This document shows, one piece after another, positions 15,491-61,823 of a DNA stretch of 64,000 nt. The notes beneath the pieces are model-generated. The model worked only from the letters and a program-made list of their open reading frames with translations, was not told where the DNA came from and did not search any database. Position numbers and translations under genes: made by a program. Location: positions 15,289,001 through 15,353,000 of the forward strand of contig JAYKYS010000010.1 in assembly GCA_036924285.1 (NCBI GenBank), written 5' to 3'. Numbering within the stretch: the first letter of the stretch is position 1; every line of letters starts with the position of its first letter. The DNA comes from Asterella californica. Taxonomy: Eukaryota; Streptophyta; Marchantiopsida; Marchantiales; Aytoniaceae.

Positions 15491-15730
15491 ATTGAAGGAT
15501 TAGCTTATGAGAACGGTGCGGAAGTCATTGCCGATGGCAAAGTATTCCTTCACGAGCAGTCGACAGTAAGAGCTTTCTAGCGCAATGGGAGCATCACTTT
15601 CTGGCGGGTCTTGGAAATTTCTGCCATTGGTCGCTAGTGATGTTGTCGTGCGATTAGGCTCAAGTTTTGAGCCGAACTGATCTGCTATGGATGACGCTAT
15701 CAAGGTTATCAGGAATCTCACTTCAGCACG

Positions 15731-16750
15731 ATGTTGAGACAAGCATTGCAAAATTCGCTTCGTGGATTCGGTTTGCGTTGGACTGGCCGGAGCGGTTCTC
15801 CGCGGGTCACATGCTTCAAAGTATCTGAGAGGGCTCATGGAGTCATCAGACGAAAGCCAATTCCAATTTCGCTCGACCAACCAAAATCCCGGAGTGGATC
15901 GCGAATCCATAACCATCTCTGGAGGTCGGACTTCGCGTCAGCTGAGCAGCCAGATCAGGCTCGGGGTGGGCTTCCCCGTTTCCATGTGGATGAGATTCCC
16001 CGGTGCGAGGGGATGGTTGCAAAGGTGGAAGGTGATGAATTCTGGCATATGATCAAAGTTCTTCGATTGAAGGTGAACGACAGCGTGGAGCTGTTTGATG
16101 GGAAAGGAGGGATTGTAGACGGCCGTTTGGTAAGTATAAATCGTCGTAATGCCGAGGTGACTGCCATGGAGTATCCCCGCATTTTGGCTCCAGCAAGACC
16201 AAGGTGGCATGTTGCTGCAGCCTTCTGTACCTTGAAAGGAGGGCGAGGTGAGTGGCTTGTAGAGAAATGTACCGAACTTGGAGCAAGTTCTCTTACTCCC
16301 TTGATGACTGAGAGGTCATCTGTGACGTCAGGTGGCCGTTCCGAGAGGTGGGAGCGAATCGCCATGGCGGCCACTAAACAATGCCAAAGACTCCACTCTA
16401 TGGAAATCAGGCGACCATTGTCGATCGAGTATCTTTTGCCTCAAATAACCGGAGTAGATTTTGCCCTTGTAGCTGCTGCGGAGGCTCCTCCGCTGTTCAA
16501 GTCTCTAGCACAGCTTCCCGGCATTCCTGAGACTGGAATTTTAGTTATCGGGCCGGAAGGAGATTTCACTGTCGAGGAGATTAATGCTTTGATGCAAGCA
16601 GGCGCAAAACCTGTGGGTTTAGGACCCCGAAGGTTGAGGGTGGAAACAGCAGCTGTTGCACTGCTTGCTGGAGTTATGCTAATGTCTGACGTAGACGATT
16701 CTGCCGCGAGACGTTCAGCAGTTGGTGTTCAAGCACATGGCGAGTCATAG
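15731..16750 (+). CDS. rsmE: 16S rRNA (uracil1498-N3)-methyltransferase, RsmE family, probably plastid-targeted
   Basis: RsmE transfers a methyl group from S-adenosylmethionine to N3 of U1498 in small-subunit rRNA. The 339-residue frame is intact and intronless. About 80 N-terminal residues, rich in Arg and Ser and poor in acidic residues, precede the bacterial-type body and look like an organelle transit peptide. The PUA-like RNA-binding domain is at about 82-150. The SPOUT trefoil knot shows LKGGRGEWLVEKCTELGAS (168-186), ERWERIAMAATKQCQR (205-220), VIGPEGDFT (272-280) and LGPRRLRVETAAVALL (297-312), the SAM-binding knot. Bacterial proteins are near 245 aa, so the extra length is the leader. 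The start at 15731 is the first ATG of the frame and keeps the leader. A LINE remnant ends 240 bp upstream. Confidence 0.93.
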   Translation: MLRQALQNSLRGFGLRWTGRSGSPRVTCFKVSERAHGVIRRKPIPISLDQPKSRSGSRIHNHLWRSDFASAEQPDQARGGLPRFHVDEIPRCEGMVAKVEGDEFWHMIKVLRLKVNDSVELFDGKGGIVDGRLVSINRRNAEVTAMEYPRILAPARPRWHVAAAFCTLKGGRGEWLVEKCTELGASSLTPLMTERSSVTSGGRSERWERIAMAATKQCQRLHSMEIRRPLSIEYLLPQITGVDFALVAAAEAPPLFKSLAQLPGIPETGILVIGPEGDFTVEEINALMQAGAKPVGLGPRRLRVETAAVALLAGVMLMSDVDDSAARRSAVGVQAHGES

Positions 16751-18380: not shown

Positions 18381-21300
18381 ATGGGGCGGGGAAATTCCGC
18401 ACACACAGGAAAGCCTGAGTATTTGTACCACTGTCCGAACCATTTCTTCGATGCAGCTGCCGTGCATAAAGAGGGAGGACGTTTGAAGCAAATTAGGGAG
18501 GATGTTGGTGACGCAAAGGTAGATGAGCTGGGGAAGGAGCTCACCGAGCTTTCTGTCGCACATAGGGATTCTGAAATCTCGGATGATGCGGGAGACGTGA
18601 ATGGGAATCGGTCAAGTGAATCTGCAAATGACGCGGGAACTAGACTGACTTGCAATCGATGCAAATCTATCTTCCAGTCTTCAGATGAGCAGCGGTCCCA
18701 TTTCAAGTCGGATTGGCATCGGTTGAATGTACGTATTTTCCGACTTCTTTTGTATTTCCTCCAGAATAGGAAAGAACACAAGGACAGGCAATCCGAGGTT
18801 GATTTACGTCCCTTGATCGTTACTTTCTCGCTGGAAGATGATCGTTTACATGGTCATCGAAGTGATCAGACGCGGCTTAATCGGAAGGAAACAAACGTTT
18901 CGTTTCTGGAAGTTGGACGTTCTGCGGGGCAAGGTTCACGGAACGAAACTGAACTTTCTGGGGCTGTAGTACCGTAACATCTATGTCTTGCTCAACTTTC
19001 GTGTTATTGCACAAAAAGGATCACTTTCGTTTTCATAAACCAACACGAGGCTCTAAGGGAAAAGGGAAGGTTCGCTCATGTTCGCTTGCTTCTGATGAGT
19101 CTCCTGTATGACGGAGAATTTCGAGGAAATTGATCAGTCGAATGTATTTTCACGCATCTTCTACTGAATGACAGTCAGTGACATTGCCCAAACTAATACC
19201 CGCACAACTTTAAGGATAATAAAGACTTCCATGGAGCACGTTCTAGGTCCGACTCGTTTCTAACTCGGAGCCTTCTACCCTGTCACACTATAGGTAAAGC
19301 GAAGGCTCGTGGGCAAGGAGCCCATGAGTGAAGATGATTTTACAAGAGTTGCAGAGGGAGAGTGGAAAGGCGATAATGACGATGTGTCAAGTATATCTGG
19401 ATCAGATTCCGAGTCCGATGATCCAGACACCGCGGAGGCTGGAGGTTTGAGGCGCATGACTCGCAGATCCAACCGTATTCACTTTGTACTACAGGACTCA
19501 GGAGAGTCGATCTCTCTGTGGCGGTCAGTTCTTCTGGCTGAGCGAGAATATTTACGAAGTGAGAAGGGTGACGCGGATGAGCAAAGTAAGGACGTACATA
19601 GTTTATCCGAAGAAAAGCTTCTGCAAAGAGTGAAGTCCCTTGTACCTCCTACAGTAAAGGCGAATGAGAATGCAGTTTCTGCCGGACATATCTGGATTGT
19701 TTTGCTGTCCGCGGGAGGGCATTTTGCTGGTGTCGTAATGAACATGCAAGGAGGAGGGGTCCTTGCTCATCACACTTTTCACAGGTACTATGAGTTTTCA
19801 TCTCAATCAGGACGATCTAGGGTAGAGTCAACGATATGTACTCTTCAAGGGTTGCATGCGGTAGCCTTTAGACCATAAACCCCACCCGCTGGCTGGACGG
19901 GCAAGAAACAATGATGGTGAGAAGATGAACACAAAGCAGAAGAGACAGCTACCTGAAGAGGACGTTCGTCCCCACCTTCCAGATTTCAGCCAGGAAAGAT
20001 TTAAATGAATCAACAAAACTGACTTTGTCAGGCTGACCCCAAAAGGAGTTGGACAACAAGGCAGCTGCTTTGGGTTTCGACTCCAGGCGACTGAATCTTC
20101 TGAACAGAGTCGATAATTCAGCTTCCGATGTCACCGACTAGAACAAGATCTAAGTACTAAATTTTACACAGTCTACCAAAATAGTGCACATTATCTTCGT
20201 CCTCAAATTGACAGAGAGTACAAACTGTCTTAGTTCATCTTATTCATCCTGGTGTTCAACGGGACTTAACTTCAGCCTAGTACCTAGGGTAGGGGTTCCT
20301 CAATTGTAGGTCTTGAAGCCAGGTTCCCCCGGGTAAACTCTCGTAAAAATGAAGGATGGCTCTTGTGATGCTTCCATCTTTGTCCTGTGTAGGAAAAGCC
20401 TGCCCATTGCCTGTAGAGCAAACAAGTTGAGCTTGAGAGCGAGTTTAATGCCTATGGTGGCAGTAGCGCTCTGCTGTTTAGTGTACAACGCTGATGAATG
20501 ACACAACTTGCCCAGGTATGTGGTGAGAGCAAAAGCAGGAGGCAGACAGTCTACACGTGATGGCACTGGCCGCGCTCCCAAATCTGCCGGAGCATCTCTT
20601 CGCCGCTACAACGAGATGGCTTTGCAAAAGGTTAGCCATTCTCCCTTTCATGTTAACGTCATGTTCTAGAAGTCGTCAAGTGAAACTGGACCAATACGAT
20701 GAACCTCTGTGTTACAGATTTAGTTATCTTAGGTTTGCTTCCGAGAGAGAACTTCTTATAATTCTGCCTCTGCCGATATTTGCGTTGCTTGAACTGTTTT
20801 CTGCCATTTTGTCTAATGTGTTCGTAAACAGTTTATCTGATCCGTCTGATAGGAAATTCGGGATCTTTTGACCTCATGGGGTGATTACCTGCGGTCTGCT
20901 TCGCACATATTTGTCTATGCTCCGTCTGCAAACGGACAAGCTCTCTTTGGAGGAGAAAATGCTCCACTGGACCGCAATGACCCACGACTGCGGCGAATCC
21001 CATTTACTACGCGTAGACCAACTTTCAAGGAAGCCCAACGGGTTTATCATGTACTGGCAACTATAGCATATGACGAGGACGGGCCCTCCCCGTCACCTGT
21101 TCTAGTTGAGACTCCCGCTGGAATCATAGATGGCAGGACTGGGGGAAAAAAGGAATCTAAACGAAGTGGGAAGATATCTGATGCAGGCAAGAGTAGCGTA
21201 GAAAGTGGTAGGCTGTCAACTTCGCAGAACCCTGGGGATATATCAAGTTCGAGTGGTAAGTTTCGTAGTATTTCTCTTCTGTGGGCACTTGACTTTCTTG

Positions 21301-23062
21301 TAAATCTTTCTATTTGATATTCAGGAACTTAACAGGTCATTTTCCACACATGCAATCGCTGAGTACCAAGATATAATCACACAAATGCACTTCCGTGCAA
21401 GCCTTCACATGGTCGAAAATTTCATCTATGGCTGTCAAAACAGGTGCTGAGGCGCCGACACCTAAAGGAACTCCTTTACATGAGGCTGCGAAGGCAGGAA
21501 ACAACGAGCAGGTGCTCATGCTTTTAGAAGATGGTTTGGATCCTTCCGCCCGAGATGAAAGAGGCAAGACACCGTATGCTCTTGCAGAAGATAAGGAGAC
21601 GAGGAACGTGTTCCGAAGATATATGGCCAGATTTCCAGATCAGTGGGATTGGCATGCTGCCGATGTACCAAGTGCTCTGACAGAGGAGATGGAGATTGCC
21701 CAGGCTGCTAAAGAGGTGTCTCTTGCTTTTCAAGTAGATAGCTTGTTGAGTTATCAAGTCAATAATCGATTCTTAAGTTATCATCCAAGATGCTCGAGTT
21801 TAGTCTAGTGCTTGACAAAATAAAGATTTTAATAGATGTATGTGTAAAGATGGATTTATTAGCGGGAAATTAGTGCTGTGTGTCGGTTGATAGGAAACTG
21901 GTTTCTGGAATGGTGGCGGGCTTATGCTGGGAGAATGATAGGAATACTTGCTTTACACCATTGACCAGAAGAGAAATGTTCTATGTGGTAGCCTTGCAAG
22001 GTGCTAAGCGATTGTGGTGAATATAGTCTATACCAGACGTAAATGAAGAGGTACAGGAGCCGTCTTGTGAATCACGCTAGAGCACGACTTACAGTGTGCT
22101 CAAATTTTGGTCATCAGGCCGAGAAGAAAGCCAAGCGAAAAGAGCTGGAGAAGGAAAGAAAGAAACTGAGAAAAGAGCAAGACAAGAAGAAAGAGGTGCC
22201 AAAATAAACGAATTTACGTGTTCCATTTCTGTTGTTTTGAATTCTACCCGTTCGAAGTGAAGGTTGTTGAGGTCTGCTTAGTAGAGAAGTCACTCATCAA
22301 TGTGATGCGCTTGGAACTGTGCCCTGAAAGTAGTTGTCGGTATGATTTCTCCTTGCGATGTTACGTAGGTTCCTTCCATCCTGTTCATAATCACTCTGCT
22401 TAATTGTCCTTTCGCAAGCTTCCCACATATTTACTTGGGTTAACCACGTACTAACTGTCTTCGAGCAGGCTGAGAAGAAAGCAGCAGAACTAGCTGCTGC
22501 CGCAGTGGCCAACGTACGGGGCACCAAGGATGTGAAAACTTTCTCGAAGGTTCCAGCTCCTGATACCAAGTCAGCTGCATATCAAGCGGTGAGAAGGGTG
22601 TCGCGTGTTTGCCCTCATTGGAACGACATTTTTTAAGCTAATTTTGTAAACACGGTGAGCCTATGTAAAGCGGCTGAAAATCGTCAAGTGGAAATAGTAT
22701 GAAAAGATCGTCCTGAGTAAGTAAGGAAAGGACTTTGTCGACTTTCTCCTGAGGGTCTATATGGAAGCTCATGTGGATGGGTGGTCTATCTGGTGCAGGC
22801 CTTAGCAAAAGCACAAGCTGCTGAAAGAGAAGCAAGAGCGGCTGCTGCAGAGGCTCGAATGCGGGCTCTCATGGCAGCCAAAGAATCTCAACCCGCCCAG
22901 GCGTCTTCAAGCATCTCGGGTAGTTCAAGCCATGGACTGTTGTGCTCGTGCTGTGGGGACTCGTTAGCTGGTAAAACACCATTTTACAAGTTTTCGTATT
23001 CATACTGCAGCACAACATGCGTTCAAGTTCACAGAAAATATCTTGAAAGCGAAGTGCAATGA
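18381..23062 (+). CDS. VMS1/ANKZF1-type peptidyl-tRNA hydrolase of ribosome quality control (8 exons)
   Basis: Vms1/ANKZF1 releases nascent chains from peptidyl-tRNA on stalled 60S subunits and works with Cdc48/p97. The exons are 18381-18728, 19294-19784, 20516-20630, 20853-21255, 21444-21715, 22118-22195, 22469-22588 and 22799-23062. All have GT/AG borders, all phases agree, and they join into 696 codons with no internal stop. Domains: C2H2 finger at 91-113 (CNRC...HFKSDWH), acidic Ser-rich linker near 165, VLRF1 release-factor-like domain at about 230-310 with the likely catalytic Gln291 in AKAGGRQS, ankyrin repeats at about 460-515 (GTPLHEAAKAGN), a Lys/Glu/Ala-rich coiled coil at about 540-640, and a C-terminal Cys cluster (CSCCG 658-662, YCSTTC 678-683). 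This is the best-preserved multi-exon gene in the window. Confidence 0.95.
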
Positions 23063-51530: not shown

Positions 51531-51533
51531 TCG

Positions 51534-51617
51534 ACTGTCGTGCGCATACACATCGCTACACAACATACATCGCTGTCAGAGGTACACCACACATACACAT
51601 AACACATGGACGATGTC
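51534..51617 (+). repeat. 84-bp duplicated flank, copy outside the left LTR
   Basis: CTGTCGTGCGCATACACATC...ACACATGGACGATGTC recurs almost unchanged at 51936-52017, directly inside the LTR. Confidence 0.9.
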
Positions 51618-51647
51618 ATACACATACACAAGTGTACCACAATAATA

Positions 51648-51935
51648 TGAATAGAGAAATTACCATCTCCAACACTACAACAAATATTACTCACAAATGA
51701 TCAAGCCAAACCCACTCTAAACGCAAAGAGAATCCGGGTTACACTCAACTAGACTACCCACCATAGCCTGGAGCTTGAAGGCTCAACTCGAAGAACTAAG
51801 GCCTCCAAGCCTTACCTGCGAAGTATACCCCTAGTGGGCTCTCCCACCAACTCGCCCTAACGGCACTAACGGCCTTACCGAGATGCGCCACTTCGCACTC
51901 GGTCAACCTAGTCGAGGTGCCAAACTGACGTGACA
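51648..51935. repeat. left LTR of the gypsy element
   Basis: TGAATAGAGAAATTACC to CAAACTGACGTGACA (TG...CA ends); pairs with 61142-61428. Confidence 0.9.
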
Positions 51936-52017
51936 GCTGTCGTGCGCATACACATCGCTACACAACATACATCGCTGTTAGAGGACACCACACATACACA
52001 TAACACATGGACGATGT
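51936..52017 (+). repeat. templated duplicate of 51534-51617
   Basis: Fills the gap between the LTR end and the inverted integrase segment. The sequence also occurs just outside the LTR, so it was probably copied in during break repair. Confidence 0.75.
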
Positions 52018-52018
52018 C

Positions 52019-53211
52019 TATCGTTGAAGTTTGGATTTTACGGGACTCTTACCGTTGACCGTACGTCACCACCGGTATGTGTTGGTGATGGTGGAGCACT
52101 TCTCCAAGTGGATTGAGTTGGTGGCATTACCAGACAAGACGAGTGAAGGGACGGCGTACGCGTTCTTAGATCGAGTGCTAAGTCGTTTTGGAGCACCAGC
52201 TGAAGTGCTGACAGACCAAGGTACAGAGTTCCTTGGTGAGTTTCAGGCCTTGTGTGATCAGGCGCTGATTGATCATCGGACTACATCTCGAGATCATCCT
52301 TAGGCAGATGGTTTGGCAGAGAGGGTAGTTCAGACGGTGAAGAGAAGATTGCGCAAGTATGGCTTGCAGAAGGGCCACTTGGGAGACTGAGATGTGCAGT
52401 TACCATGGTTGGCTATGGGTTACCATTTCAGCCGACAAGCGTTTTTGGCTTCCTTCTCACCGTATTTTCTGTTGTATGGCCGAGATCCAGATCTATCTTC
52501 GGTCATTTGTCGTGATTCTGCTGAGGTGCTGGACCTTGATGACCCGGATATATGGGTGAGAGCATGTTCTCAACGAGCAGAGATATTTCAGAGAGTTATG
52601 CTTATGGCTTTTGAGAACCTAGCGATTGCTCAGCATAGAGACACGTTGCGATATGCGATTATCCGAGGAGGAGGTTATCGACCGTCGATTCGCAGGTTTC
52701 ATCTTGGCGATTATATCTATCTACAGCAGACCACACCGACGACGTTGGACGTTGGATAGTGGCAAGGCGCACTATTTTACGAGTTCGTGAGGTGTTACCT
52801 TCTGGAGTACTCATGTTAGAGGACCGTGATGGTGTTGTGTGAAAGGACCATGTGCGTAATTGCGCGTCATGTCATCTTCCCAACATTGATGGTACCGTTG
52901 ACCCAAGCTTAGCAGATGTACGCGCGGGCTTGAGGTGTATGTTGTGTGGGTCTGCTGGTGGAGCAGCCCATATGTTGATGTGTGATGGTTGTTCGAGAGG
53001 TTGGCACATGTCATGTTTGACTCCACCTCTCAGTGTCGTTCATACTGGATGGTGGGTTTGTCCTCGATGTATATAGCAGGGATAGCCGATTAGATCTTTG
53101 CGTGGTATGGATTGTAGACAGGCGACTAACGATGGGGCGATATAGCACCCGGCCTCCTGATCCTTGCACCCATGAAGGTGTATATCACGTAGTTGGGATA
53201 TAGAGCTATCT
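52019..53211 (+). pseudogene. inverted integrase core, C-terminal domain and PHD finger of the gypsy element
   Basis: The integrase core begins YR-stop-SLDFTGLLPLT (TGG to TGA at about 52025). It continues RYVLVMVEHFSKWIELVALP, VLTDQGTEF and, after a TAG at 52301-52303, ADGLAERVVQTVKRRLRKYG; these hold the D-D-E triad. YGRDPDLSS and LAIAQHRDTLRYA (about 52470-52650) belong to the C-terminal domain. A frameshift precedes 52852-53076, which holds a PHD finger with Cys29, Cys32, Cys44, Cys47, His52, Cys55, Cys70 and Cys73 and the hallmark GWHMSCLTPPL. PHD fingers read histone H3 tails; at the end of an integrase one could steer integration to particular chromatin. The rest of pol is on the opposite strand, so this block is inverted. 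Confidence 0.85.
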
Positions 53212-53264
53212 GGAGTTAGAGGGACCTAACCGTCAGTTAGTTTGACGGTTAGGTCCCTCTAACT
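53212..53264. repeat. perfect 22-bp foldback at the inversion junction
   Basis: AGTTAGAGGGACCTAACCGTCA, GTTAGTT loop, then the exact complement, with the arms listed here in two blocks (AGTTAGAGGGACC, TAACCGTCA). It joins the inverted block to the minus-strand pol and encodes LEGPNRQ on both strands. Confidence 0.9.
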
Positions 53265-55281
53265 GTAAGGAGTGTAACTGTGGAATAGGAGCATTAAATG
53301 ATGCTCGTACTCGATCACAAACCACACATCGTGCGACAAACTGTTGCACATCGATGTGCATACCACGCCACCAATATTGTCCTTGGAGTAAGTTATGCGT
53401 ACCCTTCACTCCAAAATGTCCCAACTCCTCATGGGCATGTCGTACTAACTGTGCCCTCTGGGATGGATGTGGCACTATCCGTACCCTTCCATCACCCCAC
53501 ACTCGAAGTACATGTCGTCCTTCTCGTCGAAATCTCTTCGCTCGTTGAAGGACACGATCTCGCTCCTTGGCATTTATTGTGCCTACTACCACACCAGTAC
53601 GTAGATACTCCATCACGATCACATCATCATGGATATCTCGCTGGTCTGAAACACCATCTCCACCCTCAGGATCTGGAGACTCGTCATCTACTCTCTGACC
53701 TGAGAAAGATACGACTTGGTCCTCCATACTAGAGTTCATGGTCAACACACAAAGAAAGGCAAATGCATGCCACCCTGTCACTATCTCCTCATCATCCCAT
53801 CGAGCCCCAGTCTGATCCTGCTGACTCGTGCACGGGTTGCGACTCAACCCATCGACATCTAGGTTTGCAACTCCAAGTCTATGTACTACCTGGAAGTCAT
53901 ACTCCTGTAAGATCAGAGCCCATCGTGCAAGCTTCCATGTAAGCTTGTCGGACTCCATCAACCACTTGAACGGCTGGTGATCAGTGAGGAGAGTAAAGGG
54001 GTTCTCAAACAGATAACATCGAAAGTGTGCAACAACCCACACTGCTGCCAAACACTCTCCCTCATACGAACTATACCTCGCCTTCGCTGAATTGTTGGAG
54101 CGACTGGCATACGCCATCACGAACTCCTTTTTCTCATCATCATGCTGAGGCAGCACTGCTCCAAGTCCCAACATACTCCAATCGATGTGCAGTTGGAAAG
54201 GACGCCCCCTAACGGGTCTCCTCAAGATGGGAGCAGATGTCAACCTATCTTTGAGCTCTACGAAAGCTCGCTCCTGCTCATCTCCCCACTGCCACTCCTG
54301 GTCCACCTTCATCAGCTTGGTCAACGGCTTTGCAATTGCACTAAATCTCTTCACGTACCGACGATAAAAGTTCACCAAACCAACAAATGCTCGAACTCGA
54401 CTCACATCTGTGGGGCACGGGATACGTGCAATAGCCTCAACCTTCGTCTGTTGAACACCCAATCCACTTGGATAGATGGTGTGACCCAGATACTCTACCA
54501 ACTCTTGGAAGAATTTACACTTCCCAGGGTGTAACTTCAACCCATGAGCTCTCAATCGCTCGAACACATCCCGTAAGTGTCTCTCGTGCTCCTCCACTGT
54601 AGCACTATAGACTAAGATGTCGTCAATATAACATCTGACAAAATCCAATCCTGCTAGGATTCTGTCCATCACCCTTTGGAACTCAGCAGGGGCGTTCTTC
54701 AACCCAAATGATAAGAACCACCACTGATACAAACAATCCTTGCCGTGAGAGTCAACTCCCCAGAATGCTATCTTGGACTTATCTTCTTCTCTCACTGGCA
54801 ACTGATGATACCCTTCTCGAAGATCCAAAGTACTGAAGACCTTCACATGCCCCACTGCATCAAAGATCTCCTCAGGTGTCAGCATGGCATACTTATCGGA
54901 CTTCGTCTGCCGATTGATAGGACGGTAGTCTCCACACATCCGTCTATCCGTGTAGTTGCCATACATATCCTTCTTGGCTGACATAACTGTGGTAGATGCA
55001 TACTCTCCATGCGACATCTCCACCAATCCAGCCTCCAACAAGTCTTGAGTCCTACTCTAGATCAAGGCTCTCTCCATGTCACTGTACCTGTAAGGACGTC
55101 GAAAGATTGACGTGTCATTAGCCAAGTCGATCCGTATACCAGGTCCCTTCAAGGTACCCAAATCCTTCATACTGAAGGCAAAACAATTCCTGTAGCTCTT
55201 CAGGAATCTTTGGACTCTTCGTCTCTCCTCTCCTATAAGCTTGGGTCCAATCTCCGACTCCCAAGTATCCTCTGTCACCAT
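53233..55281 (-). pseudogene. gypsy pol: reverse transcriptase, RNase H, integrase HHCC finger
   Basis: The frame 55041-53233 is open for 602 codons. A preceding piece (55281-55057, KSYRNCFAFSMKDLGTLKG, RRPYRYSDMER) is separated by a TAG where Gln is expected. RT has STLDLREGYHQLP (70-82), FLSFGLKNAPAEFQRVM (109-125) and the catalytic CYIDD (137-141). RNase H has HIDWS, YEGECLA and LLTDHQ as acidic catalytic sites (about 288-365). The integrase zinc finger HEELGH...CVVC follows, and the frame stops at LEGPNRQTN where the inversion begins. This is the least damaged part of the element. Confidence 0.92.
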
Positions 55282-55399
55282 GCTAGAGGTAGAAGACGAA
55301 GTCGTTGACTGCTATCTTGCAACCTCTGGAGCAGTTTCCTTCTGCTCACCACCAACAACCTCCACCGCTATTGTGCGTAAAACTTCTGCAGTTCTAGCT

Positions 55400-56662
55400 G
55401 CAAACTCCACACTCTCTCCTATGACATCCCATGATGTCCAAGGATGACGAACTCCACGTGCCTCACCCCCAGTCTTTGCCTCCACCGACCCGGTAGGCAA
55501 AGAGCTCAAGAGTGCTCGAGCAGTAACACCCGTCGATCGCATCCGACGCTGCTCAGCCAATCTAAGGCTAACAATCCATGTCAAGCAATTCAAGTCCATT
55601 GCTTGACCCAATACTTGACGACGTGAAGCCTCCGATACCGAAGCTACTACCGTCGTACCCGTAGCGAAATCCATTGCTCGCTCTCTTTCATCGACATTGG
55701 GCTCCACCAATTGCCGTAATTGAGCATCCCACACAAGCCCAGGTCCTCCATCTCTGTAAGCATGTGACGTTGGAAAGCTTACCAAAGTAGGTAACGCTAC
55801 CATGGCCGTCCCACTAGGTTCACCACTGCCATGGGTGACCTATCGACGACTCTCACTACTTGAGATCGTCGTCCTGCATCCAAGATGCTATCAACCGTGA
55901 GATGTGCTGATCGTCTCACTCCATCGTGTGCTTGCTTAAGCACCTCTCTCGGTAACAAGTTCGTCCACCACAACCGTGGACGATGTGCACGAGATCCTAC
56001 TCTCGCTGCATCCAACAACACTGCTGGTCCAATCCAAGACCGCACTTGGTGCACACTCGTCATCATCTATGTACGAGCATCACCCAACAAAAGAACGTTC
56101 TCCAAGATGTACGCTGGAGAATCCACCTGATGCATCTGGAGATGTCGTAAGATCCGTAACATCTTCTAGAACATCCTAGATCACGGATCATGTAAACCCT
56201 GACCTCTCCCAACACGTGTGTGACCTTGACATGGCCATCCGGCTATCACCAAGTGAATGGTGTCAACAAAGTAAGATCCTGCGTCCCCAACAGCGAAATA
56301 TCTGACGGTAATGCTTGCTGGTATCCTCTAACAGCTGATATGGGCAACAACTCAAGATATCTCTGCACCAAACGTGTCACATGTCGCAATGAGATGCGTC
56401 TCGCAATCTCATCTTTCTCCACATACAAGTATCGCTGTACTTGTATGTCTGCTTGCAATACCGCAGCCAAACCTGTGCTGATCCCTCCAAACAGCTCCAG
56501 CACACATACACCCTCCTCTGGATACTGCCACACAATGAGAGTCGTATCCAACGATGATAAGGTCACAGGGCTAGTAGCAGGAACAACCTTTTGTTCCTCT
56601 ACTGGTGGTACAAAGGCTTCACTCCAAGCCTGCTGCACCAACTGATCAGCATACTGCTGCAA
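55400..56662 (-). pseudogene. C5-cytosine DNA methyltransferase domain inside the gypsy polyprotein
   Basis: The enzyme would transfer methyl groups from SAM to C5 of cytosine in DNA. In order on the minus strand: motif I VLELFGGISTGLAAVL (about 56503-56456) for SAM binding; an acidic motif II/III region YLYVEKDEIARR; motif IV IAGWPCQG, with PCQ at 56234-56226 holding the catalytic Cys; motif VI YILENV, with ENV at 56102-56094; motif VIII RAHRPRLWWTNLLP (about 55991-55950); motif IX/X ERERAMDFATGTT and LGQAMDLNCLTWIVS (about 55695-55555). The length of about 400 residues is right for a full catalytic domain. Lesions: frameshifts near 56250 and 55800, and stops at 56183, 56168 and 56069, all explicable by C to T or G to A changes. 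It lies in the polyprotein between protease and RT. Confidence 0.88.
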
Positions 56663-57249
56663 CTCTCCACTCGAAATCCAGAGTGGAACATCAAGGCAGA
56701 TGGTACTAACGTAGATATGCTAGGCATGCCCTCCACCTCCTCAAAGACCGGAGTATCCTCCGCATAGGCATTGCCTTCCAACAACTCGCTCGGCCAAGTG
56801 ATGACCGAACTGAATCTTGCAACGGATGCCATCGTCCCTGGTGTAGGCTCCGTCGTCCCAACTCTAACACTGAATCGCACTGGTAAGCGGCTCACTCGTC
56901 TCTCACCGGACTGCCAACTTGGTCTGTAAGATGTTGTCTTCGCCCAATAGTCGATCATGAACCCATAGAATACAACACAGCACCTCCAACCAATACATCA
57001 TAAGACTCTGCGGTTGTAACGATGGCCTTGGCCCTCACCATAGAGCCATCCGTGGGATGATCTGACCGAACTCTCACCGTCAACATCTCACGTGTCATGT
57101 GTAGAGCCGTACCTCCTGATCCCCCTAGAGATGTCTGCAACTGGAATGGACATCTCTCCACCTCGGACTTCTTTAGACCCAAACCAATACACGCCGCCTT
57201 TCCCAACATCAACGGTTGGGCTCCAGAGTCTAATAAGACCTTCTGGGGT
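56599..57249 (-). pseudogene. gypsy aspartic protease and linker to the methyltransferase
   Basis: VLLDSGAQPLMLGKAAC (about 57236-57190) is the retropepsin active-site motif DSGA, followed by a beta-rich segment to 56955 (TTAESYDVLVGGAVLYSMG). The linker 56958-56640 leads into the methyltransferase frame. A TGA at 57249-57251, where TGG is expected, separates it from gag in the same frame; a frameshift lies near 56640. Confidence 0.75.
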
Positions 57250-59441
57250 CAATACACTTTCTCTGAAGGTGCCACCAAACAGAAGATACCACTTCTGTTG
57301 TCCAACAACACCACACCTGGTGCCAAACCAGCACGGTCAATCGCCGGCCTAGCTGGTAACTCATCTAACCTAGCAGCCGCCGCTTGCCAAGTACCACTGG
57401 TAGCTGTCCTGATCCTCAACTCCATGGACACGTCTACCGCCTCTCGCTGAACTACTTCAGCCCTAGAGGTAACTACATCCTCGCTCTCACTGAGCGTGAC
57501 CGCCAACTGGAACACTGGAGCCAAGTGGACTCCCAATGCCCTCATATCCGTGGCTGAGAATAGTGAGGCTCGCAAAACTGTTGTAGCCGTCCCCAACATC
57601 GAGTTCGACGTCGCATCCACAGACGTCGAGGGTGGACTCACATCACACCCACTCTTGGATATCGATGCCTCCAACTCTATTGCACCATCGGTAGGCCGTT
57701 TAGGAACCATAGATGTGGTCCTCAACGCCTCCGATAACGTGAACGACTGGGGAAGCCTGGTCTGTCTACCAGCCTCCCCGCGTTGTGGATCCAACTCCAC
57801 TGACGCACCTCGTGGCTTAGAGACACGTACTGCACCTCTAGTCACTGCCGCAGATGCCTCAATCTGCGCCACACCAACCATGAAGTCGAAGTCACCTCCT
57901 TCTCCTCCATAAGACGTGGAAGCCTCTGATCCACCTGATCTCCGCTGAGCCATAGCCATACTAGCTATCCTCTGCTCCAACTGCTCAATCCGAGCAGCCA
58001 TACCTTCTTCTGACGTCGTAGCAGGCGGTGGACCGACCGGTCCTCTCCCAGGTGCTGGACCTCTACCTCCAGCTCGATCACCACGGGAAGCTCCTCCGGC
58101 TCGTCCACGATCAGTCTTCCCTTGCCGCAACTCGGGATGGAGATCAAAACAACGGTCACTACTGTGACCAGGTCGTCCGCAATGCTCACATTGCCTAAGT
58201 ACTACTTGAGACGTCCTTGACGTCCCTGACGTCTCATAACCTCTCCTCTGTGGACAGTCCTTCTGCTGATGAGGACCGTCACACGTCCAGCAAGGACCCG
58301 CTTGCTGCTGACCAGAGAAGGATGGCATGGGCTTCTGCCCACCAGATCCTCCAACACCTCCTTGAGATCGTGACTGCTCCGCACGATCCTTACCACCACC
58401 ACCACCACGCTGTTGCGTAGCCTGTGATCCTCGAGAAGAGGTGGTCGCTCCATGTGGTGTCTCCTTGTAACTCAGCAACCATCACCCTCTCCTCCACCAT
58501 GTTGAGCTCAATCCGCTCAGCCAGACTAAAAACCGCCAACGTCGGAGCGGTATCTCTAAGAAGAGTAGCATCTCTAACTCTCTTATGCAGCTCTCGGTCT
58601 AGTATCCCATACCAGAACTGGACTACCAGTGCTTCCGTCACCTCTTGGGTAACGTTGATCAACCGCCTCATGCGAGTAAACGCCTCGCGTAGGCTCTCTC
58701 CAGTCTTCCGCTGGAACTCCACCAGACTCCTCAACTTGTCGGTCCGCACACCCTGATAGTTCTTCCTCAAACATTGGAAGAACTGAACCACAGGGTTAAA
58801 CCCTGGTGGTATCTCGCTCACACTACCACCTGCTCCACTACCTGTGGACGCACCGCTGGTAGTAGGTACTCCGCCACCTGTGGCTGTACCATTGCTACTG
58901 GCACCCGAACTCGCAGGTGCTACGCCTCCCGAAATTGCGCCAGTAGTGATAGAAACGTAGTTGGGAGACCAATGTTGTCTCCACAACTCGATCTCAACAC
59001 TGTAATCTCGCCTGAACTCATGATAATCGTCCATCGGCGGTCCCTCCAAGTGCTGGAACAAACCCTTCCACGTCATGAAGGGTGTAAACAGCTGTGGGTT
59101 CCACATCTGCTGCAGATCGCACCAACTGTCGAACTCTTGGATGAAGTCATCCAGCTCAATGATACCAATTGTCCCGAGTAACGTCGAGGCCCCTTCGTGG
59201 TCCCATACAACGGTGTGGCGACACTAGACTCATCATCAGAAAACACGCTGTCTGCGTCTGACTCGTCCTCTGGAACAACCGACGGCAATGGTGTAGGTAG
59301 TCGGTACCTCACCCCACTCCGTGTATACCATTGTCCAAGAAGTCCCCACCAGAACCTCCCGAGAACTCCGTGATGAGAGAATTCCGCTAACACACTCCCC
59401 AACCGGAATGTCGCAATCTCTGTCACCATCGTAACCACCAC
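57249..59441 (-). pseudogene. gypsy gag with two CCHC zinc knuckles
   Basis: The capsid protein packages the RNA. N-terminal piece 59441-59073; capsid piece 59106-58390 with VQFFQCLRKNYQGVRTDKLR and ESLREAFTRMRRLI; nucleocapsid piece 58478-57249. Knuckles at about 58292-58149 are CWTCDGPHQQKDC (CX2CX3HX4C) and CEHCGRPGHSSDRC (CX2CX4HX4C). A Gly/Arg-rich stretch and a short coiled coil (ARIEQLEQRIASMAMAQRR) follow. Two frameshifts split the gene. Confidence 0.85.
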
Positions 59442-61141
59442 TTGCCTAATCCCGCTCCCACTGAGCTCATCTATCCCCTACTAGGACGGTCAAGGTAAGG
59501 GCAACCTGTACCTGCCATCACCACAGGTAGCCTCTCACGATCTGTTGGTCGTCACTCCAACCGCACCGTGAGAGAGACAAAGATAGTCTGACTGGTCCAC
59601 AATTCCAGCCTCACTACCGAAAGCACACTGGAGTGAACTCACTCCGGAAATCAAGCGCCAACACAAGCAAACACGGCGCACAACCAGGAAGCAGAATATG
59701 GATGGGTTCCAACCACAAGAAGTCCAAACGATAACCCTCCACACTCAAACATTCACATAAAGAGAAACCCAGTCCCACCCGTACTGACGTCTCCTCGTCG
59801 GTGACCACATGCACAATATATGATCACCAACTGTCGTAATTGACACTAGAGGTCACTAACTAGATGTCCACACCTCTAGTAGCTCCAAAAACATCCACGT
59901 GGTAGCTCTACTAGCTCACCCAAGACAACTGCCACCAATTGTCTCTTTACACGTCTCTACGGTATAGGCAAGCACTACCACAACTATAGCTTACCCCTAA
60001 TACTATGGGGTCGCCCTACCACTCCTCTAGGGACGTGCAAGAAGGTCTCTTACTACCTTATACAAGTCCATAAGTACTTGCACGCATCCCTGTAGGACAC
60101 CAAGAGCTATTGGTCTAGTGGTAAAGCCAAAGCTAAGACTACAGAGTTAGGAGTCCAGGTCCATGAATAGTGTTGGGATGGGTGACCAGCTGGTTTTACA
60201 CTTCCCACACAATTGGAACTTGGATACCTCTCTCACGCACGCCAGCAAGCTGGCCTGCGGCGAACGCGGGCTCGGGCTCATGCTCAAGCTCAGTTCCGCT
60301 CCGCCTCCGCAGTCACGCACCTCTGCTCCTCGAAGCCTCTAAACCTCTAAACGCCTCCTAACACGCACTCCACACCTCGACACTCCCGCTCACTCTCCGC
60401 TCCGCTCCGCTTGAAGTAGAGTAGAACAGGTACAACACACCAGAAGAGGCTCGGCTCCACCTCGAATTGCAGAAGATTACACCAAAAGAGACTCCAAAAC
60501 AGCAAAAACAGCTTGCGGGTGCACACGGGTGACCAAAATCTGACGTAAAACAGCAAGAACACCAACGTCAACCCGAACAACACCACAACAGATTCACAAA
60601 TGTACAATACACACTTCGCAAATGCACATACACACAAGAAAACTCCTAAACTCGAGTTTCCACACGAAATTGCACCAAAATCTGACGTAACTAACCTTTT
60701 GATACTTTCGGGTGACACGGCAGCGAACTTCGACATGCCATAACTTCTTCAATCCTTGGCCAAACTCCACGAAACTTAGTGCACTAGAATCATCTCTCAA
60801 ATGCGCTTCCAAAGAGCCCACTCCGATCTGACATTGACAAGTACTCCGTCTGCCACGCCCAAACGCGCAATCCGGCTCCAACAAGACACTTCAAGAACAT
60901 TCCGCAAAATTTCTGCAGCGCTTCCGCATGACAGAAATCTCCACTCGACCCCAACAACAGCAAATCGATCTGCGACCAGCAATGTAGCATGCGCCCACAC
61001 ACCTCGATCACAGCTCCAAACAATCAAGCACGAACAGCAACGCCCGAAGATACCAGCGGACGATTTCAGATTTCAGATTTCAGATCAGCGAGCTCTTACT
61101 GAACTCCGCCTCGACCTCATCACGGAGTTCTTCGAGTAATC
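59442..61141 (-). other. gypsy 5' leader (long, non-coding)
   Basis: About 1.7 kb between the right LTR and gag. No primer-binding site complementary to a common tRNA was recognised next to the LTR. It contains a pol III-like motif cluster at 60101-60195 on the plus strand. Frames such as 60347-60736 are low complexity. Confidence 0.5.
60101..60195 (+). repeat. tRNA/5S-like pol III promoter motifs in the leader
   Basis: TGGTCTAGTGGTAAAGC (60111 on) is a good tRNA A box, GGAGTCCAGGTCC (60150-60162) a weak B box at normal spacing, and TTGGGATGGGTGACCAGCTGG (about 60173-60193) resembles the 5S rRNA C-box region. It could be a SINE head inserted in the element. Confidence 0.4.
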
Positions 61142-61428
61142 TGAATAGAGAAATTACCATCTCCAACACTACAACAAAGATTACTCACAAATGATCAAGC
61201 CAAACCCACTCTAAACGCGAAGAGAATCCGGATTACACTCAACTAGACTATCCACCATAGCCTGGAGCTTGAAGGCTCAACTCGAAGAACTAAGGCCTCC
61301 AGCCCTACCTGCGAAGTATACCCCTAGTGGGCTCTCCCACCAACTCGCCCTGACGGCACTAATGGCCTTACCGGGATGCGCCACTTCGCACTCGGTCAAC
61401 CTAGTCGAGGTGCCAAACTGACCTGACA
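61142..61428. repeat. right LTR of the gypsy element
   Basis: TGAATAGAGAAATTACC to CAAACTGACCTGACA; about ten differences from the left LTR. Confidence 0.9.
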
Positions 61429-61823
61429 CGACTGCACAGTGCAGTCTACATACTTATTTTTCATTCGTGAATGAATTATAATCATCCAGCTAAAGCTCAA
61501 TTATGCATGTGTTTCTACCGAGTCGAGGTATTACTGTACACTCACGGATGAATGTTCTCAGTTCCAAAGATCACAAATCACAATGTCACAATCCATTACT
61601 GTCTTCAAAAGTTCACGTAAGTATCAGTTCATTAGTTACAACACGCTCGGAGAAAAATGCATGCATCAGGCCTTTGGCTGTGGGAGAGACCTGGAGTTCA
61701 CCACATACTTTTTCTTCATGACAACAAAGATCAACAATGCAAAATTCCCAGAGTCATTCTTTCTGAATTTTTCATTCATGAAGCACAAGTGAACCGAAGT
61801 TTCTTTCAAGACAAACTACTTGT

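Follow-up and report, generated by a model that had tools for sequence, protein, structure and literature searches.

The 64,000-nucleotide stretch of Asterella californica DNA analysed here (the window) carries a decayed copy of a Ty3/gypsy retrotransposon, whose family ends its first open reading frame (ORF1) in a Dnmt3-type C5-cytosine methyltransferase (MTase); on balance, this enzyme, a predicted passenger of the Gag particle, is rather likely to methylate the element's own cDNA. The whole element occupies positions 51536..61428 on the minus strand, and its ends, TGTC and GACA, are fixed by a perfect 4-bp target-site duplication, CGAC, at 51532..51535 and 61429..61432. Its 5′ end is repeat A1 (61137..61428, minus), which holds the predicted transcription start and is 96% identical to repeat A2 (9 differences over 284 positions). 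The gag portion of ORF1 (58390..59106, minus) and a gag C-terminal portion including the zinc knuckle (57249..58478, minus) are 82-91% and 84-90% identical, respectively, to ten long-frame genomic copies; in Pfam, Retrotrans_gag reached just E 0.094 and, for the zinc knuckle CWTCDGPHQQKDC (58254-58292, minus), zf-CCHC just E 0.13, both under the cut-off. Further along the minus strand lie a protease-like active-site segment with DSG, LLDSGAQPLMLG (57201..57236), an assignment supported by PF13650 in two relatives (P0147 and P0151), the MTase (55312..56719), the ORF1 stop (55312..55314) and ORF2 (53265..55311), in which Pfam identified RVT_1 (8.7e-30), RT_RNaseH (6.9e-31) and the integrase zinc finger Integrase_H2C2 (1.1e-16), and which contains one further in-frame stop near 55058. 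The integrase core (rve, 3.2e-15) and the C-terminal PHD finger are inverted and lie on the plus strand (52019..53240). Repeat comparison places B1 (51938..52018, its start lost through rearrangement), A2 (51644..51935) and B2 (51536..51643), the 3′ end of the element, on the minus strand, with the palindrome GACAGCTGTC, the predicted integrase cut site, at the B1/A2 junction (51932..51941).

The inverted block is 94.5% identical to a segment of the genomic copy L024, where it lies on the MTase strand, and no such inversion was seen in other copies. An ambisense gypsy element, which the plus-strand integrase might suggest, is rejected, since RT, RNase H and integrase lie on the MTase strand in all nine long-frame copies in which an integrase core was found (ten examined). 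A 51-nt fold-back palindrome of polypurine-tract-region sequence marks the inversion edge (53214..53264). The breakpoints of the rearranged stretch (52019-53264) fall at the polypurine tract and B1, and the inversion might be a scar of autointegration. The window copy is non-collinear because its integrase core and PHD finger sit on the plus strand, and it is dead because the MTase is spread over three frames with three stops and the integrase block is inverted. The first-pass annotation had read a single LTR-bounded polyprotein here; the MTase motifs do lie together on the minus strand, but the three frames, the inverted integrase and the A-coding-B-A-B repeats do not form such a polyprotein, and neither an active enzyme nor a collinear polyprotein can be encoded by this copy.

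Elsewhere in the window, a DDE_Tnp_4 transposase frame (1-732) stands just ahead of a tandem array (1016-1607) whose unit measures 125/251 bp; the shorter unit is present 4.7 times, with 92% matches. An RNA methyltransferase frame (15695-16747; Methyltrans_RNA, 8.5e-40) and two frames that match portions of the bVLRF1 release-factor domain (19294-21314) are likely host genes.

The segments that correspond to C5-MTase motifs I (VCVLELFGGISTGL, 56468-56509), IV (IAGWPCQ, inside 56214-56255), VI (ILENV, inside 56085-56111), VIII (SRAHRPR, inside 55965-55997) and X (RRQVLGQAMDLN, 55588-55623) all lie on the minus strand in the canonical order, which is not of the DRM type. As the first-pass annotation had claimed, the ordered motifs lie between protease and RT, flanked by the protease-like DSG segment and by the RT motif YIDD (54610-54630). 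The domain, now in three pieces with three in-frame stops, is 92% identical to that of the intact genomic copy L023. Searched singly, the three stop-free window pieces, which exclude the motif IV/VI stretch with its stops, matched no Pfam family, whereas the intact L023 domain matched PF00145 at 35 bits (cut-off 22), so that the expected profile match was found in the family and not in these window pieces. The window piece with motif I matched DNMT3A weakly (E 0.087), and that with motif VIII gave no relevant match. The domain is not a product of chance, because ten fetched genomic copies keep it as one uninterrupted frame, 92-100% identical to L023 across the domain. The presence of a C5-MTase in a Ty3/gypsy element is thus supported by the intact copies and their PF00145 match.

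A PF00145 scan of the 516.7-Mb assembly gave 123 scored places among 1,250 first-look candidates and, among the matches listed, at least 16 of these places have open frames of 1,367-1,381 codons. Ten long-frame copies (two stretches each) and 40 MTase regions were fetched, and 49 of the 50 regions, all of them picked by the domain, carry it as part of this family, the fiftieth (L043, among the 40) being a host gene. Because the copies were chosen by a PF00145 match, mostly around motifs IV-VI, the set is biased toward intact catalytic sites. Among the 49 family copies (duplicates counted once), 18 have an MTase in which 400 or more of 450 codons are open, and in the other 31 it contains stops, frame changes or gaps. 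A single frame runs from gag through CCHC and PR to the MTase in all ten long-frame copies; it is followed by a stop and then, where intact, by RT onward in the same frame. Pfam identified DNA_methylase, RVT_1, RT_RNaseH, Integrase_H2C2, rve and PHD (E 3.8e-11) in L023 and L024, all above the cut-off, and in ORF1 of L023 it showed neither a protease nor a gag family, nor any chromatin-reading domain. Complete copies have the arrangement TGTC-[A1]-gag-CCHC-PR-MTase-TAG-CAGTCA-RT-RNaseH-IN-PHD-[B1]-GC-[A2]-[B2]-GACA with 4-bp target duplications.

Judged by dN/dS in a set of copies picked for open frames, the MTase of the same-genome copies is under purifying selection. Since pairs of stop-bearing copies behave similarly, with dN/dS falling with distance much as in the open-frame set, the signal is best read as past selection on the lineage. 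Constraint on the PHD finger is weak (dN/dS 0.40, 8 copies), and the tail of 80 residues that follows the MTase shows little or none (1.49).

By sequence, the intact MTase of L023 is closest to DNMT3A/B; DNMT3A ranks first in the PDB search (E 9.1e-11), and a tRNA methyltransferase is at the bottom of the 37 matches listed (E 0.0096). The predicted fold is also closest to DNMT3A/B (Foldseek); the Foldseek and VIA lists are headed by DNMT3, although absence from these lists does not exclude other families. A DRM or CMT origin is ruled out by the motif order, and DRM also by the PDB search, in which named DRM2 chains reach just E 0.006 and 4onj (‘DNA methyltransferase’) 2e-4. The catalytic Cys is kept in 201 of 206 relatives and the catalytic Glu in 202. 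By motif reading, the host's own frames are Dnmt3-like (L001), DRM-like with rearranged motifs (L002) and CMT/DNMT1-like (L043).

The stop codon between MTase and RT is conserved together with its context: in a copy alignment, TAG-CARTCA is kept in 46 of 47 aligned rows, window included (51 searched), as TAG-CAGTCA in 45 rows and TAG-CAATCA in one, and is deleted in the remaining row. In the type I readthrough motif, used for example by tobamoviruses, UAG is followed by CARYYA (PMC5382211). With readthrough, the MTase would be part of the abundant product, Gag-PR, and only the rare product would contain RT-IN; most ribosomes would halt at the UAG to yield Gag-PR-MTase at the level of a structural product, and a minority would pass it to yield RT-IN-PHD. 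Re-initiation could substitute for readthrough, since an ATG lies ten codons downstream of the TAG. Several database ORF1 proteins terminate behind the MTase (e.g., P0122, P0136-P0149), and in P0151, P0067, P0175 and P0179 the frame continues past the MTase into RT.

Genomic copies begin with A1 (TGTCAC) and finish with B2 (GACA), and across 31 copies (the window copy plus 30 genomic ones) the 4-bp target duplication is perfect in 18 of 21 readable cases and has one mismatch in the other three. The 5′ end carries A only and the 3′ end B-A-B, in place of the same complete LTR at both ends, so the family is a variant of Ty3/gypsy, as reported for KnitGypsy-Dnmt3 (discussed below). B1 and B2 are 98-100% identical in copies with both aligned. 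Complementarity identifies a predicted self-primer binding site, CTCGAAGAACT (61126..61136, minus), which abuts the inner edge of A1, and a predicted RNA 5′ end or self-primer, AGTTCTTCGAG, within A1 (61281..61291, minus), with a second copy of the latter in A2 of the window (51787-51797). In six of six copies, the 11 nt abutting A1 are perfectly complementary to A at about nt 140, where the RNA start is predicted; the window copy has an altered pair with the pairing preserved, a third variant that still pairs occurs in a second subfamily, and all 14 further copies with A1 (20 examined) have a complement of 10 nt or more. An equally good match occurred in 6 of 200,000 random 11-mers. An RNA 5′ end whose 11 nt pair directly behind the 5′ LTR is the self-primed layout of Tf1-type elements, and the predicted 11-nt RNA 5′ end of the family would resemble that of the Tf1/sushi type in being complementary to a site abutting the 5′ LTR; LTR permutation, an MTase and a PHD finger are not known from elements of that type. 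A plant initiator-Met primer site was not seen behind A1.

In the proposed route, the RNA would begin in A at AGTTCTTTGAG, pair with the 11-nt site behind A1 and self-prime reverse transcription. The polypurine tract AGGGGGGCG immediately precedes B1 and, by the usual rules, this tract and the self-primer site would bound a conventional LTR, B-gc-A, carried at both ends of the cDNA. The integrated form appears to be a permutation, in which the right end of the cDNA (A) adjoins the left end (B). Each terminus of the element is one half of the palindrome GACAGCTGTC, which is whole at 23 of 25 B1/A2 junctions, the other two being cut by the edge of the stretch in one case and altered by a single change in the other. 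The A2|B2 joint, readable in 23 copies of 29 examined, is CAGATTA|TTGTGG in 14, the same with one extra A in three, and TTATCA|TTGTGG in four, all of the second subfamily; two primer-site bases are retained in one, and one contains a repeated filler of about 20 nt. The filler, in L086 (copy17), repeats CTCGATG and resembles a templated end-joining insert, and the target duplication of this copy is TCGA.

From this repeat anatomy, which is the basis of the model, the favoured route passes through a circular (or end-joined) intermediate that integrase would recut at the palindrome. The cDNA ends would be joined (the A|B joint), and integrase would recut the circle at the palindrome (B|A), a step that would leave the permuted A...B-A-B form in the genome. 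Retroviral integrases are able to cut such palindromes in vitro. It is possible, although rather unlikely, that A-B-A-B arises without a circle, an unusual template switch recopying B on linear cDNA whose ends integrase then uses normally. The near-identity of B1 and B2 is expected from any copying route, and the joints are mostly uniform, 18 of 23 sharing one form within their own subfamily, as a precise route would also give. However, B2 is positioned beyond the predicted 3′ repeat of the RNA, and the B2-A joint shows an insertion in one copy, two primer-site bases in one and an extra base in three, variation that end joining of cDNA would leave.

The packaged MTase would add CG methylation to the exposed cDNA, in the particle or after nuclear entry, and the methylated cDNA would pass as host DNA or be protected against nucleases or deaminases. 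By reading histone H3 tails, the PHD finger would steer the integrase to chromatin. By analogy, the chemistry may be the same as that of the SymbioDIRS-Dnmt3 MTases, which methylate CG in yeast; KnitGypsy-Dnmt3, the nearest MTase tested, gave no methylation in yeast, a result that the authors call inconclusive (PMC5890265). Action on the element's own cDNA is favoured over action on host chromatin because of the Gag-level position of the MTase. That the enzyme instead works mainly in trans on host chromatin, adding methylation or competing with host enzymes and thereby tuning the silencing of the family, seems improbable. Dnmt3-type enzymes work de novo, genomic copies are many (49 family copies examined and 123 places scored), and an effect of this kind in Symbiodinium is discussed by de Mendoza et al. 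(PMC5890265); yet an MTase in the Gag-PR frame before a predicted leaky stop points to particles rather than chromatin, and Klebsormidium nitens carries such elements although its methylome is land-plant-like (PMC5890265). Still less probable is a role other than DNA methylation, either as a structural or nucleic-acid-binding extension of Gag, which the closing position of the MTase in the Gag-PR frame would suit, or in RNA methylation, which the authors raised for LINE-borne DNMTs (PMC5890265). The near-universal catalytic residues noted above, the likeness of sequence and fold to DNMT3A/B and the last place of the tRNA methyltransferase among 37 matches argue against it, and methylation of the element's own cDNA is the reading retained here.

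Database relatives were gathered by MTase queries and are no sample of all gypsy elements. The X-masked window MTase gave 132 protein matches (120 listed), the intact-copy MTase region 58, and the MTase of a distant relative 259 (120 listed). The first-pass annotation had held that retroelement-borne MTases are known from only a few lineages, which fits the published record (PMC5890265) and falls short of these numbers of matching proteins. Among the matches listed, the hosts include Marchantia, Riccia, the liverwort Calypogeia and four Sphagnum species including S. fallax, as well as Closterium sp. NIES-53 (Zygnematophyceae) and Haematococcus lacustris (Chlorophyceae); the record label Chrzof1 presumably denotes Chromochloris zofingiensis. 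Klebsormidium was absent from the matches listed in the three protein searches, and a scan of viral_contigs with RT gave one pattern match and zero confirmed. Where a protein has both domains, the MTase precedes RT in 13 of 111 and follows it, beyond RNase H, in 98 of 111; a PHD finger follows the integrase in 116 of 128 proteins with MTase and integrase. One relative, the MTase-PHD gypsy polyprotein P0171, bears the record name ‘MAG: reverse transcriptase domain-containing protein [Minisyncoccia bacterium]’; its sequence is probably eukaryotic and mis-binned. The Sphagnum and Marchantia models P0010, P0020, P0122 and P0123, named hypothetical protein or DNA (cytosine-5-)-methyltransferase, resemble element frames, and host DNMT counts that include them could be too high.

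In a quick MTase tree (79 of 179 proteins, midpoint root), the retroelement rows form one long-stemmed clade (SH-aLRT 100), separate from the host Dnmt3-like, DRM-like and human DNMT3A rows. A quick RT tree has 40 rows (34 of 94 second-order proteins passing the length filter, four first-order proteins, L023 and one outgroup). In it, a branch with SH-aLRT 99 has the second order, with the MTase after RT, all on one side; the first-order elements do not have to be a single clade (2 changes). Both trees have long branches, with three outgroup rows for the MTase and one for RT. Because of these two quick trees, the simplest reading would be one capture followed by one later move of the MTase within pol. 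A single recent capture of a host Dnmt3 gene or fragment by one element copy, which the host's own Dnmt3-like gene (L001) might suggest, is refuted by the family, since all 49 family copies examined, themselves picked by this domain, have it, and since the single clade of 79 retroelement MTases (SH-aLRT 100) leaves out the host Dnmt3-like, DRM and human DNMT3A rows. More tentatively, and with doubt attached to the whole, a green-lineage gypsy clade may have captured Dnmt3 once, made it a Gag-level particle enzyme by readthrough, and methylated a self-primed, recut circular cDNA before insertion; the capture would then predate the parting of the chlorophyte and streptophyte members, or later transfer would be involved, and the insertion route, in which a DDE integrase recuts an LTR palindrome, would be unprecedented.

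A gypsy element that combines a Dnmt3 domain with DIRS-like repeats was already known, KnitGypsy-Dnmt3 of K. nitens having been published in 2018 (PMC5890265). The Gypsy domains, unrearranged Dnmt3, DIRS-like repeats and purifying selection on the MTase described for it are all found here, whereas its MTase lies within the Pol polyprotein ORF and the present one closes the gag-PR frame before a UAG motif (PMC5890265). The present family also has a PHD finger behind the integrase, and its target duplications, predicted self-primer and permuted LTR are worked out here; the words PHD and readthrough are absent from the main text of that paper (PMC5890265). The dinoflagellate SymbioDIRS-Dnmt3 and SymbioLINE-Dnmt, described as separate acquisitions, likewise carry a cytosine MTase in a retroelement, with two coexisting domain orders and, in SymbioDIRS-Dnmt3, A-coding-B-A-B repeats, but use a tyrosine recombinase or LINE machinery in place of the DDE integrase found here (PMC5890265). 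The DIRS group shares with the family the split direct repeats A...B-A-B and, putatively, a circular intermediate; membership of that group, which has a tyrosine recombinase and no target duplication, is excluded by the rve-type DDE integrase and the 4-bp duplications. Green-plant Dnmt3/DRM enzymes share the catalytic domain and Dnmt3 motif order, and differ in that Pfam shows no chromatin reader in ORF1 here and that the MTases of retroelements group separately, on a long stem. A Sola transposon bears an N4-cytosine or N6-adenine MTase (PMC12477816). In a literature search by titles and abstract starts, PMC5890265 alone was found for cytosine-MTase retroelements, and in this search, which covered mainly open-access papers and no preprints, neither elements of this type from bryophytes or chlorophytes nor the readthrough placement, the PHD finger or the permuted-LTR explanation came up.

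A kind of element described from one charophyte alga in 2018 is now found in several bryophytes and green algae, and annotators should be warned that some Marchantia and Sphagnum gene models appear to be element frames. If the circle route is true, it would reopen the question of whether integrase uses circular cDNA, with natural termini as a record of the event. Why a mobile element would carry an enzyme of the kind used to silence it was asked in 2018, from one charophyte and dinoflagellates; the many open copies, the close relatives in Marchantia polymorpha, the predicted Gag-level position of the MTase and the readable joint make that question testable.
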